Part shown: one piece after another, positions 11,417 to 42,731 of the stretch
How positions within the stretch are numbered: the first letter of the stretch is position 1
Layout of the letters: every line of letters starts with the position of its first letter
DNA from: Gammaproteobacteria bacterium
Lineage (GTDB): Bacteria > Pseudomonadota > Gammaproteobacteria > Pseudomonadales > Pseudohongiellaceae
DNA length: 42,731 bases
Direction: 5' to 3'
NCBI GenBank assembly: GCA_018698975.1
Contig: JABIPQ010000060.1
Coordinates: forward strand, 1-42,731
Made by a program: the position numbers and the translations under genes
Notes under the pieces: model-generated
Databases searched by the model: none
What the model was told of the DNA's origin: nothing
What the model saw: only the letters and a program-made list of their open reading frames with translations

Positions 11417-11510
11417 GATAAAAGATAAAGGAAGAAATATAAAGGCGGTATTGTTCCGGCTCAACTGCACTTTATTACTATCCTTTACTCTTTATCCTTT
11501 ATCTTTCATC
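11417..11510. repeat. Inverted-repeat element between mreB and mreC
   Basis: Arms at 11417-11445 and 11482-11510 are inverted copies (23 of 29 positions match) made of GATAAAAGATAAAGG-type tracts, with a 36-bp spacer. They belong to the same family as the 2093-2237 element. In the mre transcript they would form a long stem between mreB and mreC. It is not a typical terminator because no clean T-run follows. Confidence 0.7.
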
Positions 11511-15151: not shown

Positions 15152-15679
15152 ATGAATTCCCGAACCAGCATAATTCTTGTTTTTTTTATTGCTGTTTCAG
15201 GCTGCGTCACTGATTTTGAAATTCTGGAATGGCCTGAAGAGGGCTACCCCAGAAATTATTTTAAGACGGCTTTTCAGGAAGATGATCTGGCACAGCAATA
15301 TCAATCTGAAGATGATTATCTGTTATGGGTTACACGTTTTTATAATGGTTACAGTTTGGCCCCGGGCTGGCTTAGTTTAACGGAGCAGGTAAAAGACAGG
15401 CTGGATGAGCCTTATCGTTCAGAAGTCGCTGCGAAACTTTATATCCTGGGAGGCCGGATTGGTAGCGAATGGGCCAAGGACAATGCGGTAAGAGTACTTG
15501 ATACACGAAATGCCGCAGTCTGGCGTGATGCGCTGGTAGAGGCACTCAGCCAGAATGATCTTGATAACTATATTATCCGTGTCGAAGAAGATATTGGAAA
15601 TTTGTTTACAGGAGACCTGAAAAAGGAAGATATTATCTTCGAAAGATACTTTATTAGTGTAGATGATTTTGAATTCTGA
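15152..15679 (+). CDS. Uncharacterised lipoprotein downstream of PQQ dehydrogenase
   Basis: A predicted lipoprotein of 175 residues: a short signal peptide with lipobox VSGC (Cys18) and an acidic mature part (EDDLAQQYQSEDDYLLWVTRF, YNGYSLAPGWLSLTEQV, DNYIIRVEEDIGNLF). I do not recognise the family. It starts 14 bp after the quinohemoprotein gene, so it is very probably cotranscribed with it and may be an envelope partner or chaperone; that is an inference from position alone. Its last 55 bp are duplicated downstream at 15707-15761. Confidence 0.75.
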   Translation: MNSRTSIILVFFIAVSGCVTDFEILEWPEEGYPRNYFKTAFQEDDLAQQYQSEDDYLLWVTRFYNGYSLAPGWLSLTEQVKDRLDEPYRSEVAAKLYILGGRIGSEWAKDNAVRVLDTRNAAVWRDALVEALSQNDLDNYIIRVEEDIGNLFTGDLKKEDIIFERYFISVDDFEF

Positions 15680-15706
15680 TTATTCGTAATAGTACCCGGA
15701 AGAGAT

Positions 15707-15761
15707 GGAAGATATTACCTTCGAAAGATAATTTATAGGTGAAGAAGATTTTGAGTTTTAA
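15707..15761 (+). pseudogene. Duplicated tail of the upstream lipoprotein gene
   Basis: This 55-bp stretch repeats the end of the preceding gene (15625-15679) with 46 of 55 identical bases. It would read EDITFER, then a stop, then FIGEEDFEF and a stop. It looks like the last piece of a tandem paralogue whose remainder was deleted, or a short local duplication. Confidence 0.6.
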
Positions 15762-24300: not shown

Positions 24301-24318
24301 AATAGCACTTAAGCTATT
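24301..24318 (+). promoter_or_regulatory. Leader hairpin before the rplU ribosome site
   Basis: AATAGC and GCTATT form a perfect 6-bp stem around ACTTAA, immediately before the GGAG of rplU (which begins in the last bases of the stem's right side). Ribosomal protein genes are often controlled through such leaders; here only the hairpin and its position support this. Confidence 0.35.
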
Positions 24319-24328
24319 GGAGAAAGAT

Positions 24329-24772
24329 ATGTACGCGGTAATTGAAAGTGGCGGCAAGCAGCACCGGGTAAGCGAAGGTGAAGTGCTTAAACTTGAAAAA
24401 ATCGAAGCCAGCACTGGCGACAAAATTGATTTTGACAAGGTGCTCATGGTTGGTGAAGGCGCTGATGTTAAAATTGGCACTCCCTATGTCGAAGGTAATG
24501 TGACTGCTGAAGTAATCAGTCATGGCCGCGGTGACAAAGTGAAAATCATCAAATTTCACCGTCGCAAGCATCACAAAAAGCAGATGGGCCATCGTCAATG
24601 GTTCACTGAAGTGAAAATCACTGAAATTTCTACTGGCACCAAAGCAAAGGCCGCTCCTAAAAAGGAAGCTGCGCCTAAAAAGGAAGCAGCCCCTAAAAAG
24701 GAAGCTCCGGCCAAGAAGGCGGCCCCTAAAGCTAAAGCTAAAGCTAAAGTAGCTGCAAAGAAAGAAGATTAA
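24329..24772 (+). CDS. rplU: 50S ribosomal protein L21 with extended tail
   Basis: L21 binds 23S rRNA in the large subunit. Residues 1-103 form a standard L21 ([58 protein letters not shown]). After this comes an unusual C-terminal extension of about 45 residues made of repeated APKKEA units and then KAKAKAK, giving 147 aa compared with 103 in E. coli. The start is the ATG at 24329 with GGAG 6 nt upstream; a TTG at 24317 is ignored. rpmA follows after 92 bp, as usual. The basic, Ala/Pro/Lys tail is probably disordered and exposed at the ribosome surface. Confidence 0.96.
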
Positions 24773-26419: not shown

Positions 26420-27544
26420 GTGAGTAAGCGCGAATCACTGACAAAAGCCAGAACCTGGGTCGTGAAGATCGGTAGCTCTCTGCTCACCGATGACGGTAAG
26501 GGCCTGAACAGAGAAAGTATGGCTGCCTGGGTTCAACAGATTGCCGGCTTCCAGGAAGACGGCCTGTCCGTTGTGTTGGTGTCATCTGGTGCTGTTGCTG
26601 AAGGTGTTTTGCGTCTTGGCCTGAAAGGCAGGCCTAGCGCCATTCACGAACAGCAGGCTGCTGCCGCTGTAGGTCAGATGGGACTCATTCAGGCCTATGA
26701 GTCTGAATTCCAGAAATTTGGACTGCATACTGCGCAGGTACTGCTGACACATGACGATTTGTCCAACAGAAAGCGGTATCTGAATGCTCGCTCTACTTTA
26801 AAGACACTGCTGAACCTGGGAGTGGTGCCTGTAGTGAATGAAAATGACACGGTAGTCACCGATGAAATTTGTTTTGGCGATAACGATACTCTTGCCGGGC
26901 TTGTTGCCAACCTGATTAATGCCGATGCCATGGTAATTCTCACCGATCAGGATGGCTTATACGAAAGTGATCCGCGCAATAATCCTGATGCAAAACTGGT
27001 CAGCGAAGCCCAAAGTAACAATGATGAATTATTCGATTTCGCGGGCACCGGTCATGGCGACCTTGGCCGTGGCGGTATGCTCACCAAGGTCAAGGCGGCC
27101 CGGCTTGCTGCCCGATCAGGCACACTCACCTGCATAGTCAATGGCAGGCAGGATTCTATCCTGGAAAAACTTAGGGCAGGGGAAAATGTAGGTACCCTGC
27201 TTAAGCCTGAGAGCGAGCCTCTCGCAGCGCGCAAACAGTGGCTGGCAAGTCATTTAAAAGTGAAAGGAATTTTTGAACTGGATGCCGGTGCCGTCAGAGT
27301 ACTTAAGGAATCCGGAAAAAGCCTCTTGCCTGTCGGTATCAAAGCCAGTTCCGGAAAATTCCAGCGCGGAGATGTTGTCAGTTGTGTTGATGAGAAAGGT
27401 AATCCCATTGCCCGCGGCCTGGTGAATTATAATTCTGATGAAGCTGAAAAAATTGTTGGCCACTCCAGTGAAGAGATTTTTTCCTTACTGGGTTATGAAG
27501 GCGATCATGAAATTATTCATCGGGATAATCTGGTGTTGTTGTAG
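26420..27544 (+). CDS. proB: Glutamate 5-kinase
   Basis: ProB phosphorylates glutamate in the first step of proline synthesis and is feedback-inhibited by proline in characterised enzymes. The 374-residue protein has the amino-acid kinase domain ([71 protein letters not shown]) followed by a C-terminal PUA domain (about residues 275-370, from LDAGAVRVL). It starts at GTG 26420 with AAGGGA six nt upstream inside obgE. proA is not adjacent. The obgE-proB pairing is typical of Pseudomonas-like genomes. Confidence 0.96.
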
Positions 27545-27594
27545 TTGGTGCTGGTTTTTTATTCACTCATACTTTATCTCTTTATCTCTTTAAT

Positions 27595-27998
27595 CTTTCT
27601 GTTACCTCTTTTGCATGCCCAAAAGAAGTAACCAAGAAAAGGGCACCCGACGTGTCCTGGCCTGCGGCTTCCTTCGTCACCCTGCAACAGCATGGCTCCT
27701 CAGCAGGCCACACGTAAAGTCCATGCTGATCTGCTTTTTCCAAAATATTCTATTGTTGATACTTCAACTGGATTCAGAACAAGGCGGGCGCCCCTGAAGC
27801 CAGCCGAATGGAGCGAATTTTATTGGGGTGAAATGGCCATGGACGGCCATTTCAGGCGTCTCGTGGCAGGAAGCCACGTAAAGCCGGCCACGATAAAAGC
27901 CGTGTAATGAGGGAAGCCACAGGCCTGGCGACCGGGGAATACTTTCTTTGGTTACTTTCTTTGAAAAGAAAGTAACAAGAACCTTTTCAGCAAACAAA
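27595..27998 (+). repeat. Hairpin-rich intergenic repeat, copy 1
   Basis: A 400-bp repeat fills most of the gap between proB and the secreted operon. Its left end reads CTTTCTGTTACCTCTTTTGC followed by ATGCCCAAAAG. Inside are GAAATGGCC-ATGGAC-GGCCATTTC (27830-27853), CGTGGC-AGGAA-GCCACG (27862-27878) and a perfect 12-bp stem GTTACTTTCTTT-GA-AAAGAAAGTAAC (27951-27976). The right terminal repeat is degraded compared with copy 2. The short open frames in it belong to the repeat, not to genes. It lies in the same orientation as copy 2 at 30819-31349. A GATAAAG-like tract (27561-27600) adjoins it. Confidence 0.85.
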
Positions 27999-28093
27999 AA
28001 GCCCTGTGCAGCAGATAAGAATTAGGAAAATCGCTTTGCCAGAATAAGGTCTGAAAAAGGGAAATTTCTCCCAGGTTTAAATAGTCATAGTAT

Positions 28094-28122
28094 TTGACAG
28101 AATACCCCGCCATCGTTATGTT
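28094..28122 (+). promoter_or_regulatory. Promoter of the secreted three-gene operon
   Basis: A perfect TTGACA and a TATGTT (5 of 6) are separated by 17 bp and lie about 59 bp upstream of the first start codon at 28181. This is the strongest sigma70-type promoter seen in the window. It lies downstream of repeat copy 1, so the operon does not rely on proB transcription. Confidence 0.7.
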
Positions 28123-28180
28123 AGCTGGGTTTTAATTCGAAGTATTTACAGTCAGATTTAACATCCTTTGGGGGCAGTTC

Positions 28181-29050
28181 ATGGGCAGAATCTATTGCCG
28201 GATTTCATTATTACTTATATTTTCCATGGCCAGTTTTTCTGCTGCCGCAGAAAAAAACTTTTCTGGCGTGTGGGTAGGAAATTACAGTGAAGATTTTCCT
28301 GACCGTCTGCCTGGTCCAGAGCTTGGCGACTATGCGGGGCTTCCTATTAATGATGCTGACAGATTGCGGGCACAGAGCTGGAGCGCATCACTGATAGCCC
28401 TTCCCGAATACCAGTGTCGTGTTCATCCCTCAGATTATGCCAGCAGCTTCGCCAATATCCGGATTTGGGAAGAACGTGAGCCGATTTCTGAAGAGCTGAT
28501 CGCCATTCGAGTACAGCATTTTGCCTGGCAAACCCGGCGTACCATATGGATGGATGGCCGTGAGCATCCGCCTGAGTATGCACAACACACCTCTATGGGC
28601 TTTTCTACCGGCGAATGGGTAGGGCACCAGCTAAAAGTTAAAACAACGCATCTCAAGGAAGGCTGGCTACGACGCAACGGCGTTACTCGCAGTGATCAGG
28701 CCACAGTTACAGAATATTTTATTCGACACGACGATCTTTTGACCTGGACAGTGATTATTGATGATCCTGTCTATCTGGATGAGCCTTTCATCAGGAACCG
28801 GGATTATATTTATTCCATCGACAACCAGATTGGTAATTATCCTTGTGACCCGGTCATCGAAATGGTGAGAGAACCTGGCTATATTCCCCATCATTTGCCG
28901 GGAACCAATACTGATATGTTGATTTATTCCGAACGCCATGATATTCCGCTGGAAGGCGCCATGGGGGGAGCGAATACCATGTATCCCGAATATATGGAGC
29001 GATTGCAGGAACTACCCAGACCCAGTGAATTAGCGGGAGGTCAGGAGTAA
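28181..29050 (+). CDS. Exported protein of unknown function, first of a three-gene operon
   Basis: A 289-residue protein with a cleavable signal peptide (LLLIFSMASFSAAAE). The mature part starts NFSGVWVGNYSED and contains ELGDYAGLPINDADRLRAQSW, LPEYQCRVHPSDY, IWMDGREHPP, GFSTGEWVGHQLKVKTTHL, GWLRRNGVTRSDQATVTEYF and IIDDPVYLDEPF. This pattern recurs in uncharacterised exported proteins of proteobacteria and Acidobacteria. The C-terminal block resembles that of the third gene of this operon, so the two are distant paralogues. Two Cys (in EYQCRV and NYPCDP) could be bridged. GGGGG precedes the ATG. Function is unknown; beta-strand-rich barrel folding is plausible. Confidence 0.75.
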   Translation: MGRIYCRISLLLIFSMASFSAAAEKNFSGVWVGNYSEDFPDRLPGPELGDYAGLPINDADRLRAQSWSASLIALPEYQCRVHPSDYASSFANIRIWEEREPISEELIAIRVQHFAWQTRRTIWMDGREHPPEYAQHTSMGFSTGEWVGHQLKVKTTHLKEGWLRRNGVTRSDQATVTEYFIRHDDLLTWTVIIDDPVYLDEPFIRNRDYIYSIDNQIGNYPCDPVIEMVREPGYIPHHLPGTNTDMLIYSERHDIPLEGAMGGANTMYPEYMERLQELPRPSELAGGQE

Positions 29051-29054
29051 AGCA

Positions 29055-30005
29055 ATGAAAAATAATATGATTAAGCAATTTATAGCGCTGGTAATTTTAC
29101 TGGCAAGCCCTCTTGTAATGGCACAGCAAAATTTCGATGACATTGAAATTCAGGCCTTAAAAGTGCGGGACAATATTTATATGCTAGTGGGTTCCGGTGG
29201 CAATATCACGGTGCAGATCGGCGCGGAAGGGGTACTGGTGATTGATACCCAGTATGCCGAGTTGTCGGATAAAATCCTGGCCAAAATTCGCGAGTTGTCC
29301 GACAAACCCCTGCGCTACATTATTAATACGCATCATCATGGCGATCATGTTGGTGGTAATGAAAATATAAAGAATGCAGGATTTACCCTGAGTGGCGGAA
29401 ATGTTGGCGCAGCCTTGTCAACTGCCGGTCAAGGGGCGACCATTCTGGCCCACGAAAACGTGTTATTAAACCTGGCTTCTGATGAAAATGTGTCCACTGA
29501 ACTATGGCCAACCTTGACCTACTTCAGTGATAAAAAAGATATCTTTTTCAATGGTGAGGGGGTGCGGATTATCCATCAACCCAATGCCCATACCAATGGC
29601 GACAGTATCATCTTTTTCCGCAAATCAGATGTAATCACTACCGGTGATGCATATATCACCAGCTTTTATCCTTTCATTGATATGTCTTCTGGCGGTACCT
29701 TGCAGGGTTTTATTGATGCGTCCAATGCCATTATTGACCTGATAATTCCCGAGTATGGTCAGGATGGTGGCACCCTGGTAATCCCGGGTCACGGCAGGCT
29801 TAGTGATATTGGTGATGTTATCAACTGGCGGGAAATGCTGACCATTGTCAGGGACCGTATAAAAGATATGAAAGATCGGGGCATGAGCCTGGAGGAAGTA
29901 CTGGCAGCCAAGCCAACCCGGGACTATGACCCACGCTGGGCAGGTCAGGGAATATTCTCTACCGAGAATTTTGTCACAGCAGCCTACATGACACTGGAAG
30001 ATTAA
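29055..30005 (+). CDS. Exported metallo-beta-lactamase-fold hydrolase
   Basis: A 316-residue protein with a signal peptide (IALVILLASPLVMAQ) and an MBL-fold domain. Metal ligands are visible: HHHGDH (in NTHHHGDHVGG), the His of QPNAHTNGDS, the Asp of TTGDAY and the His of VIPGHGRL. Thus both zinc sites appear complete. The domain resembles the periplasmic SoxH/quinoprotein-relay type rather than clinical beta-lactamases. It starts 4 bp after the upstream stop, with AGGAG inside the end of that gene, so translation is coupled. Substrate unknown; the paired exported proteins may bind or deliver it. Confidence 0.85.
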   Translation: MKNNMIKQFIALVILLASPLVMAQQNFDDIEIQALKVRDNIYMLVGSGGNITVQIGAEGVLVIDTQYAELSDKILAKIRELSDKPLRYIINTHHHGDHVGGNENIKNAGFTLSGGNVGAALSTAGQGATILAHENVLLNLASDENVSTELWPTLTYFSDKKDIFFNGEGVRIIHQPNAHTNGDSIIFFRKSDVITTGDAYITSFYPFIDMSSGGTLQGFIDASNAIIDLIIPEYGQDGGTLVIPGHGRLSDIGDVINWREMLTIVRDRIKDMKDRGMSLEEVLAAKPTRDYDPRWAGQGIFSTENFVTAAYMTLED

Positions 30006-30015
30006 GGAGCGACAC

Positions 30016-30777
30016 ATGAAAACTAGTATTATCAGAACAATATTGTCGACTCTGGTGTTGCTGACGTCTATGGCCAGTACATCAACACTATTTGCACAAC
30101 CAGGTGGACAACAGCAATCTGCACAAGAGCAGTCGGCTTTTGATATAAGCGGCAACTGGGTAGCTTTGGTTACAGAGGACTGGCGTTTCAGAATGGTTGT
30201 TGCTGAACCTGGTGACTACGAAGGCATAGGATTGACAGCACATGGAAGGGAAGTAGCTGATGCCTGGGATCCTGAGGCTGATATTGCTTCAGGGAATACC
30301 TGTAAAGCCTATGGCGCTGGTGGCCTGATGCGTATCCCTACACGCTTGAATATTAGCTGGAGCGATGGCAATGTTTTGCGTATCGACACCGATGCCGGCA
30401 TGCAGACCCGTTTGCTGAAATTCGGTGATGCTCAGGACAATGTTGGCGCGGGTAGTCTTCAAGGTGTTACCCATGCCAGCTGGGATCTGGAAAGGGCAGG
30501 TGCTTTTGGTGGGCCGGTAGTTGGTGGATCAATTGCTGCAGTAACAACACAGATGGCACCCGGGTACTTACGTCGAAACGGGGTGCCCTATGGCACTAAT
30601 GCTGTTCTGACCGAGCATTATGAGTTGTTGGTAGGAGGAGATGGTACTGAATATCTGGCCGTATTTTCTGTGCTCGAGGATCCTGAACATCTAACGCAGT
30701 TGTATACTACTAGTACGAATTTCAAGAGAGAACCTGATGGTTCTAAATGGAATCCTGCGGAGTGTATGGCTAAATAA
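30016..30777 (+). CDS. Exported protein of unknown function, third gene of operon
   Basis: A 253-residue protein with a signal peptide (ILSTLVLLTSMASTSTLFAQ) and a Gln-rich linker. The domain starts FDISGNWVALVTEDW, then GDYEGIGLTAHGREVADAW, NTCKAYGAGGLMRIPTRLNI, LRIDTDAGMQTRLLKF, GYLRRNGVPYGTNAVLTEHY and VLEDPEHL. SG.W, ED, GDY.G, LRRNGV and DP.(Y/H)L are shared in order with the first gene of the operon. AAGGAG lies 6 nt before the ATG, 10 bp after the hydrolase stop. Close homologues are often found near DUF6152 genes, and one lies just beyond the next repeat. Function is unknown. Confidence 0.75.
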   Translation: MKTSIIRTILSTLVLLTSMASTSTLFAQPGGQQQSAQEQSAFDISGNWVALVTEDWRFRMVVAEPGDYEGIGLTAHGREVADAWDPEADIASGNTCKAYGAGGLMRIPTRLNISWSDGNVLRIDTDAGMQTRLLKFGDAQDNVGAGSLQGVTHASWDLERAGAFGGPVVGGSIAAVTTQMAPGYLRRNGVPYGTNAVLTEHYELLVGGDGTEYLAVFSVLEDPEHLTQLYTTSTNFKREPDGSKWNPAECMAK

Positions 30778-30818
30778 TTTTTAACTGTAGCCCTTTTTTC
30801 TTGTTCGTTATTTTCTTC

Positions 30819-31349
30819 GCCTGTGAAAACTTTCTGTTACTTCTTTTGCATGCCCAAAACAAGTAACCAAGAAAAAGGCACCCGACGTGCCCTGGCCTGC
30901 GGCTCCCTTCGTCCCCATACCATTGCGAGGGGTCGTCGAGACAAAACGTCCCTGTTTTGACTCGACTCAACTGGCCACTCATGGCCAGTTGATCCTGCAA
31001 TAGCATGGCTCCTCAGCAGGCTACACCGGAAGTCCACGTCGATCTACTTTTTCCCAAATAATGCTTTCCTGATACTTCGACTGGATTCAGAACAAGGCGG
31101 GGGCCCCTAAAGCCAGCCGAACGCAGCGGATTTTTGTGGGGTGAAAAGGCCATGGACGGCCTTTTCAGGTGTCTCGTGACAGGATGTCACCTAGTCTGCT
31201 TGGGTGCGCCGGCCCCGGAAAAAACCGCGGAGTGAAGGAAGCCGCAGGCCTGGCGACTGGGGAATGCTTTCTTTGGTTACTTTCTTTGAAAAGAAAGTGA
31301 CAAGAGGCTTTTGGGCATGCAAAAGAAGTAACAGAAAGTTTATACAGGC
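30819..31349 (+). repeat. Hairpin-rich intergenic repeat, copy 2
   Basis: This longer copy of the 27595 repeat has nearly intact terminal inverted repeats: 30830-30859 and 31309-31338 are perfectly complementary over 30 bp, with similarity extending about 11 bp outward. Internal hairpins include GAAAAGGCC-ATGGAC-GGCCTTTTC (31143-31166), GTGAC-AGGAT-GTCAC (31176-31190) and the GTTACTTTCTTT stem (31276-31301). About 85 bp absent from copy 1 hold two more hairpins: GTCGAG-A-CAAAAC with GTTTTG-A-CTCGAC (30935-30966), and CAACTGGCCA with TGGCCAGTTG (30968-30991). No open frame of interest. It may be a non-autonomous mobile element or a structured RNA. Confidence 0.87.
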
Positions 31350-31361
31350 AAAAAAAGAAAT

Positions 31362-31390
31362 AAAAAAAGGCCGCTATTGCGGCCCTTTTA
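31362..31390 (-). terminator. Terminator of the DUF6152 gene
   Basis: On the minus strand, GGCCGC and GCGGCC pair around AATA and are followed by seven T. It lies about 42 bp beyond the DUF6152 stop. An A/T tract on the other side could make it bidirectional, also stopping transcription leaving the repeat. Confidence 0.85.
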
Positions 31391-42578: not shown

Positions 42579-42640
42579 GTAGGAGGGACTTCAGTCCCGA
42601 AGAAAGGGGCTTTGTTCTTCGCGGTTAAAACCGCTCCTAC
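42579..42640. repeat. REPIN-like element, copy 1
   Basis: Two REP-like half units lie in inverted orientation: GTAGGAG, hairpin GGACTTCAGTCC, CGAAGAA; a 10-bp spacer; then the inverse, TTCTTCG, hairpin CGGTTAAAACCG, CTCCTAC. The outer and inner flanks are exactly complementary, while the two hairpins differ in sequence but both pair. This is the layout of REPINs mobilised by RAYT transposases. A 71-bp stretch (42581-42651) is repeated exactly in copy 2. Confidence 0.85.
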
Positions 42641-42658
42641 AAGGGATAGCGAATTCAG

Positions 42659-42720
42659 GCAGGAGGGACTTCAGTCCCGAAGAAAGGGGCTTTGTTCTTC
42701 GCGGTTAAAACCGCTCCTAC
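42659..42720. repeat. REPIN-like element, copy 2
   Basis: This is an exact repeat of copy 1 over 71 bp (42661-42731) with an 80-bp period and a 9-bp spacer; only the first bases differ (GCAGGAG in place of GTAGGAG). The window ends precisely at the end of the repeated unit, so further tandem copies may follow. Confidence 0.85.
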
Positions 42721-42731
42721 AAGGGATAGCG

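Follow-up and report, generated by a model that had tools for sequence, protein, structure and literature searches.

What kind of element are the two long repeats that lie between genes in a 42,731-nucleotide stretch of DNA from a Gammaproteobacteria bacterium of the Pseudohongiellaceae (GCA_018698975.1, contig JABIPQ010000060.1, positions 1 to 42,731 of the forward strand; here called the window)? An initial annotation of the sequence had left three answers side by side, i.e. a structured RNA, a miniature inverted-repeat transposable element (MITE) moved in trans, or both. We find that the repeats, at 27592–27999 (copy 1) and 30819–31349 (copy 2), are palindromic elements of a common plan whose core is related to the structured RNA family TwoAYGGAY, and that their sites are empty in most related genomes. 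The reading that we favour goes further and sees in them a non-autonomous, MITE-like mobile palindrome carrying CsrA-type RNA hairpins, with binding of the RNA to CsrA as a prediction; going by the sequences, we rate its chances at a little below even.

The initial annotation had described the two repeats as comparable copies without a transposase, and both descriptions hold: they align in three blocks with 85–87% identity, and no open reading frame (ORF) of at least 100 amino acids lies within either copy. Overall, the element is a palindrome of 0.4–0.5 kb composed of two inverted half-units. Each of these has an end hairpin on the outside, a long arm and a pair of neighbouring hairpins, whose loops mostly read A-N-GGA-N, or GGA in a shorter loop, on the strand that reads outward. 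This inverted order of the half-units follows from copy 2, in which the loops of the right half lie on the plus strand and the apices of the left half on the minus strand. The two copies and their parts are:

27592–27999, plus strand: copy 1, palindromic element
27601–27632, plus strand: left end hairpin of copy 1, GTTAC..GTAAC
27829–27854, plus strand: core hairpin 1 of copy 1, loop ATGGAC
27862–27878, plus strand: core hairpin 2 of copy 1, loop AGGAA
27951–27976, plus strand: right end hairpin of copy 1, GTTACTTTCTTTGAAAAGAAAGTAAC
30819–31349, plus strand: copy 2, palindromic element
30827–30859, plus strand: left terminal inverted repeat of copy 2, 33 bp, perfect
30836–30867, plus strand: left end hairpin of copy 2
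30891–30910, plus strand: inner arm of copy 2, CCTGGCCTGCGGCTCCCTTC, pairing with 31234–31253 (90% complementary over 20 nt)
30942–30959, minus strand: left-half hairpin of copy 2, minus-strand loop AGGGAC
30968–30991, minus strand: left-half hairpin of copy 2, minus-strand apex ATGAGT, without GGA
31143–31166, plus strand: core hairpin 1 of copy 2, loop ATGGAC
31176–31190, plus strand: core hairpin 2 of copy 2, GTGACA-GGA-TGTCAC
31234–31253, plus strand: inner arm of copy 2, GAAGGAAGCCGCAGGCCTGG, pairing with 30891–30910
31276–31301, plus strand: right end hairpin of copy 2, GTTACTTTCTTTGAAAAGAAAGTGAC
31309–31341, minus strand: right terminal inverted repeat of copy 2, 33 bp, perfect

The perfect terminal repeats of copy 2, put at 30 bp in the initial annotation, thus measure 33 bp, and they sit within 59-nt arms that are 85% complementary. 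In copy 1 we found the inner arms only and no outer terminal repeat of this kind. On either strand both copies fold more stably than all of 100 shuffled sequences, with z values of −5.6 and −7.0 for the two strands of copy 1 and −11.6 and −12.5 for those of copy 2.

At the gathering scores of Rfam 15, no family matches anywhere in the window. A search with a lax threshold, however, detects RF01731 (TwoAYGGAY, gathering score 43) in the right half of both copies:

27811–27905, plus strand: match of copy 1 to RF01731, 39.6 bits, E 5e-4, below the gathering score
31143–31199, plus strand: weak match of copy 2 to RF01731, 28.6 bits, E 0.16, below the gathering score

Judged by their scores, the window copies are diverged relatives of TwoAYGGAY and not members by the family's own cut-off. 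Homologous copies do exceed 43 bits, i.e. one on contig C141 of the same genome (46.7), one in the related genome G002 (50.4) and two in G004 (46.8 and 45.4), with G003 at 41.3 remaining below, and in 18 loci TwoAYGGAY was the sole Rfam family at gathering score. A single-copy riboswitch or leader was ruled out, since the element is multi-copy and the window is without an Rfam match at gathering score. In the available part of PMC2864571, by Weinberg and colleagues, TwoAYGGAY figures as a probable RNA in human gut, Gammaproteobacteria and Clostridiales, and a proposal that it binds CsrA is found in the available part of PMC4333381.

Is this palindrome mobile? A DNA similarity search of the own genome, a 95% complete assembly, yields four matching loci, i.e. 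copies 1 and 2 and one each on contigs C91 and C141, and there are others in the genus; the further copies which the initial annotation proposed to look for therefore exist. For C141 a reading of its GTCCAT loop as an inverted hairpin was set aside: this locus is better described as a left and a right half-unit that have been joined, because the same left half occurs in G002. Among the five other genomes of the genus (G001–G005), the copy-2 site is empty in all and the copy-1 site in four (G001, G002, G003 and G005). In these four, the genes flanking copy 1 are only about 104–223 bases apart, as measured between tblastn borders, compared with 636 bases in the own genome, and the intervening sequences contain no element. 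In G004, element ends are found behind its counterpart of the kinase gene that precedes copy 1, where the contig ends, and, in opposite orientation, ahead of its counterpart of the next gene. Since by protein identity the window genome is closer to G002 and G003 than to G004, the copy-1 site has probably seen a loss or repeated insertions. The element resembles a MITE in being short, non-coding, repeated in the genome and polymorphic in its insertion; perfect terminal repeats are present in copy 2, and copy 1 has inner arms only. The alternatives left by the initial annotation come close to what we find, a mobile palindrome with a known structured-RNA motif in it. Mobilization of the window copies in trans is not supported: they are without target duplication, and DNA similarity, by which a diverged partner would be missed, revealed no autonomous partner with the same ends in the assembly, the only further matching loci being C91 and C141. 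A phage origin was rejected: at E 1e-5, blastn gave no hit among 50,697 phage records, and the arm pattern had no match in viral contigs.

The core is not confined to this genus. At E ≤ 0.001, TwoAYGGAY is present in 24 of 369 genomes of the class, in 16 of them above the cut-off, and is absent from all 14 control genomes. When 26 selected genomes were searched more closely, 15 proved to contain it, at as many as 30 places per genome; these counts are lower bounds, because only 71 candidates were scored in many genomes. Among the 150 matches listed there are 25 neighbouring pairs less than 500 bases apart, and 24 of these are divergent, i.e. minus followed by plus, with a single convergent pair; all come from five genomes (G390, G462, G665, G572 and G544), three of which belong to one genus. 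Inspection by eye showed end hairpins of the same plan beside the core at nine of 15 loci (L125, L126, L127, L128, L132, L133, L139, L141 and L149), whereas none were visible at the other six (L130, L131, L136, L137, L138 and L142). In genome G313, a second GGA hairpin pair is present in four of 20 copies (L178, L182, L185 and L188). In genome G593, the core rides on a different MITE, with repeats of at least 8 bp flanking four of 12 copies, compared with four of 132 mismatched pairings (L204, which is cut at a contig end, was left out); three of the four are exact 9-bp target duplications. The terminal repeat of this MITE occurs 265 times at up to three mismatches, its reversed control 12 times.

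Searching for the inner arm together with the end hairpin in GTDB species genomes gave 15 stretches, two of them from the Pseudomonadales metagenome-assembled genome (MAG) HM.19; L033 (Ruminococcaceae) was dropped as a chance match, judged from its sequence. The remaining stretches come from Thiobacillus-like and other Betaproteobacteria, from Gammaproteobacteria and from MAGs named Deltaproteobacteria, Desulfobacula, Acidobacteria, Rhizobium and Proteobacteria, and some may be mis-binned contigs. Marinobacterium sedimentorum has 15 exact end-hairpin words, and its adjacent paired hairpins covary. A narrow end-hairpin pattern gave no match in 244 genomes of the order, the own genome included, and is uninformative, as its gap range excluded the own 2-nt loop. 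Far from the Proteobacteria, the 0.96-Mb fusobacterial plasmid pILYOP01 of Ilyobacter contains seven exact end-hairpin words (L080–L086, L011), and nine with one mismatch compared with three for the reversed control. A plasmid origin of the element was rejected, the end hairpin on pILYOP01 being a single, partial match.

A second question is whether the hairpins are maintained as folds. The double changes on which the initial annotation had built its case are present: the first stem reads GAAATGGCC-ATGGAC-GGCCATTTC in copy 1 (27830–27853) and GAAAAGGCC-ATGGAC-GGCCTTTTC in copy 2 (31143–31166), with the loop unchanged, and in the second stem GTGGC/GCCAC corresponds to GTGAC/GTCAC. Three hairpins with 28 pairs were aligned from six copies of the genus, i.e. 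copies 1 and 2, C91, C141 and two copies from G004; those in G002, G003 and G004:C113 were left out. In this alignment 91.1% of the stem cells are paired, so that the stems do not break as often as they hold, compared with a mean of 79.7% in shuffled alignments, and 11 of the 28 pairs show a double change compared with a shuffled mean of 5.5; for neither value were any of 500 shuffles as high. Pairing falls to 35–51% when the partner is slid by one to three columns. One measure, the number of further pair types, is unremarkable, as 88 of the 500 shuffles reach it. There are also broken pairs: in helix 2, 81% of the cells are paired, and in C141, as aligned, several pairs of the end hairpin are broken.

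Thus, pairing is kept beyond what shuffling produces, but the step from double changes to selection on the fold cannot be taken on the double changes alone, because in Thiobacillus-like copies of the element stems change in paired blocks around fixed loops. Four such genomes carry an orthologous element in the same place, behind a gene read as sdhA. The stem bases of two hairpins, which were picked after their variability had been seen, differ by 19–50% from one genome to another, compared with 9.5–11.7% for the rest of the element. In every comparison more stem pairs are altered on both sides than on one, and none of the 14 loop bases has changed. At this one conserved site the loops are fixed as ACAAAAC or GTTTTGT (L021, L027, L030 and L031) and may serve a binding partner other than CsrA. 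It seems that paired blocks of the stem are replaced as wholes; exchange or conversion between the arms of the palindrome may be the cause, and this does not in itself require selection on RNA. This is a caution for covariation tests in general: palindromic repeats can gain paired changes in blocks, from which selection on an RNA need not follow.

What then argues for CsrA is the loop more than the stem. The element loci collected contain 226 distinct perfect hairpins with a loop of 6 nt, and in 48 of them the loop has the form ANGGAY, a count that is partly circular because many loci were chosen with the RNA model and near-identical families recur. In a contrast that is less affected by this, a C–G pair closes 47 of the 48 ANGGAY loops and 48 of the 178 loops of other kinds, whereas at pairs 2–6 of the ANGGAY hairpins all four pair types are in use. 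The fixed loop with its C–G closing pair fits the published CsrA consensus, RUACARGGAUGU with the GGA in a hairpin loop, as given in the available part of PMC4347634. ACARGGATGT itself occurs in some relatives (L035 and L215) and not in copies 1 and 2.

The gene csrA is present in the own genome, in 313 of the 369 genomes of the class and in all 24 genomes with TwoAYGGAY (P = 0.017 under independence, a value which takes no account of relatedness). When loci were chosen by their end hairpins alone, with strands collapsed and the end hairpins themselves excluded, GGA (or TCC, on the other strand) formed the apex of eight of 13 hairpins in three genomes with csrA and of two of 17 in five genomes lacking it (Fisher p 0.007, not an independent test because csrA status tracks lineage and the set lacking csrA consists mainly of one Thiobacillus-like group). 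The table covers genomes that were scored for csrA and therefore excludes G302 and W01 (two GGA and nine other hairpins); G296, G299 and G304 had no hairpin that qualified for the count. With three genomes compared with five, i.e. few lineages, a link between loop type and the presence of csrA is suggestive. Taken together, a fixed loop and C–G closing pair amid a varying stem, with a loop type that tends to follow the presence of CsrA, point to a function of the hairpin pair.

On these grounds we propose the following mechanism. Lying in 3' untranslated regions or between genes, the element would be transcribed by read-through, and since its half-units are inverted, either orientation would produce an RNA with one copy of the hairpin pair. 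This pair would dock a dimer of CsrA/RsmA and thereby either titrate the protein or mark and stabilize the host transcript, and the element may spread as a movable CsrA decoy. If its RNAs do bind CsrA, a global regulator would be tuned by how many copies of a mobile element a genome carries and by where these have inserted, and every insertion would place a host transcript under CsrA.

Several observations weigh against this CsrA reading, to which the relatedness of the genomes behind both csrA comparisons has to be added. The window copies stay under the Rfam cut-off, and their second loop is AGGAA in copy 1 and GGA in copy 2 instead of AYGGAY. Counted by genome, GGA apices occur in two of three genomes with csrA and one of five lacking it; the latter is G305, a MAG in which no csrA was found and which accounts for both GGA cases in that set. 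Marinobacterium (G297), with three csrA matches, has GGA-apex hairpins, yet there was no RF01731 match among the 71 candidates scored of 205. A clear excess of G·T pairs over A·C mismatches is not seen in the strict GGA hairpins (5:5 and 6:2); a looser count of 50:24, possibly inflated by near-identical copies, is not relied on. Finally, the ends of the window copies show no target duplication: the longest words shared are 4 bp, apart from one 8-bp word at copy 2 that is positioned away from the ends.

Some of these points are what would be expected of a mobile palindrome that operates at the level of DNA only. Its hairpins would be kept by palindrome correction or arm exchange, a transposase or replication protein would recognize the fixed loops in the single-stranded state of the DNA, and RNA would play no part. 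The block-wise double changes around unchanged loops in the Thiobacillus-like elements, the lack of a clear G·T excess, the strong folding of both strands, the mirror-image halves and the TwoAYGGAY-bearing element of G593, with its terminal repeats and 9-bp target duplications, all suit this alternative. It accounts less well for a loop class that tends to track csrA, for the agreement of loop and closing pair with a published RNA–protein consensus and for Thiobacillus-like elements that combine the same end hairpins with a different fixed loop (ACAAAAC). We regard it as possible but somewhat doubtful. The same Thiobacillus-like loops would also allow the CsrA reading to be widened into a widespread superfamily of mobile palindromes with hairpin pairs matched to a host protein, i.e. 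GGA for CsrA in hosts with csrA and ACAAAAC/GTTTTGT in Thiobacillus-like hosts without it; these would be selfish, orientation-independent sponges, in which stems are rewritten in blocks and the docking loop is kept. As a whole, this wider scheme strikes us as unlikely.

The genomic setting of the copies brings in a further alternative. Ahead of copy 1 lie a GTPase gene and an amino-acid kinase gene (26420–27544); the latter includes a PUA domain, and from its Pfam domains we read it as glutamate 5-kinase. Copy 1 is followed by a promoter-like site. Copy 2 lies between the last of three closely spaced genes of the same direction, i.e. an upstream operon, and a terminator-like hairpin:

28094–28122, plus strand: promoter-like TTGACA-17-TATGTT ahead of the next gene, with copy 1 upstream of it
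31364–31389, strand not assigned: terminator-like hairpin, with a similar hairpin after the upstream gene in G002, G003 and G004

A TTTGACA...TATGTT site also occurs in G001, G002, G003 and G005, all of which lack an element at the copy-1 site. The terminator-like hairpin is likewise present in G002, G003 and G004 although their copy-2 site is without the element, and the same sequence is not found in the intergenic stretches of G001 and G005. Strongly folding copies behind the kinase gene and between an operon and a hairpin common to three relatives could be 3'-untranslated stability or termination elements similar to repetitive extragenic palindromic (REP) sequences, in which the mRNA upstream is guarded by any stable fold, irrespective of the loop sequence. 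We consider this improbable, as it leaves unexplained both the fixed ANGGAY loops with their C–G closing pair amid varying stems and the second GGA pair in four of the 20 G313 copies. Movement as single-stranded DNA through the end hairpins, of the IS200/IS605 or integron-cassette type, would suit the end hairpins on both sides and the lack of target duplication at the window copies, but is most improbable in view of the perfect terminal repeats of copy 2, a feature not known from this class, of only four matching loci in the own assembly and of the absence of sRNA-Xcc1, HEARO or IS605 RNA from the 18 loci, in which TwoAYGGAY was the only Rfam family at gathering score.

Other repeats and genes in the window are recorded here in their own right. 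The first gene after copy 1 (28181–29050) has no Pfam match at E 0.001 and belongs to a large family, with 25–51 protein matches per genome in all six genomes of the genus. At 42581–42731, two identical 71-base tandem units, ten bases apart, reach the end of the contig, and another dispersed palindromic repeat may have caused this assembly break. An AT-rich inverted repeat at 2093–2237 has arms of 37 nt that are 92% complementary and 71 nt apart, and there is a weaker inverted match between 2086–2116 and 11479–11509. Within ORF 24317–24772, three overlapping copies with an 18-base period (24650–24719) are read as a lysine- and alanine-rich stretch, and a direct repeat of 51 bases (15625–15757; 86% identical, 82 bases apart) has its first copy in the end part of ORF 15152–15679.

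How, then, does the element compare with systems already described? With TwoAYGGAY it shares two adjacent GGA-loop hairpins on a longer stem, and its relatives in the genus pass the gathering score, unlike the window copies, which also differ in the second loop. The available parts of PMC4333381 and PMC2864571 contain no description of TwoAYGGAY as a palindromic mobile element that is dispersed and whose pairs are inverted. Our analysis places this orphan RNA family in a genomic setting: several genomes carry it as the core of dispersed palindromic elements and not as a single-copy regulator. Rfam assigns RF01731 to clan CL00106, which we take to be the CsrB/Rsm clan. CsrB and the Rsm RNAs are host genes at fixed places and in this respect unlike the element, a dispersed palindrome. 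For RsmY, the model gave nothing over its cut-off in the six genomes of the genus, with sub-threshold matches also in ten of 14 controls; the CsrB, CsrC and RsmZ models were not run genome-wide. In their repeated A(N)GGA motifs, the sponge RNAs CsrB/CsrC and RsmX/Y/Z and Aln1a-c of Alteromonas do resemble the element; the Aln1a-c RNAs all lie in one intergenic region (according to the available part of PMC5864184).

A description of CsrA hairpins on MITEs, or of TwoAYGGAY as mobile, was not found in the open-access literature, most subscription papers being outside this scope, and two papers on the QMITEs of Coxiella (PMC10969869, PMC5896051) do not use the word CsrA in their main text. Bacterial MITEs and QMITEs differ from the window copies, which are without target duplication. 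In other respects, the available parts of these two papers describe QMITEs much as we find the element: short, non-coding, repeated, equipped with terminal inverted repeats and located in 3' untranslated regions or between genes. Their transcripts fold (PMC10969869, PMC5896051), and some are reported to yield small RNAs (PMC10969869).

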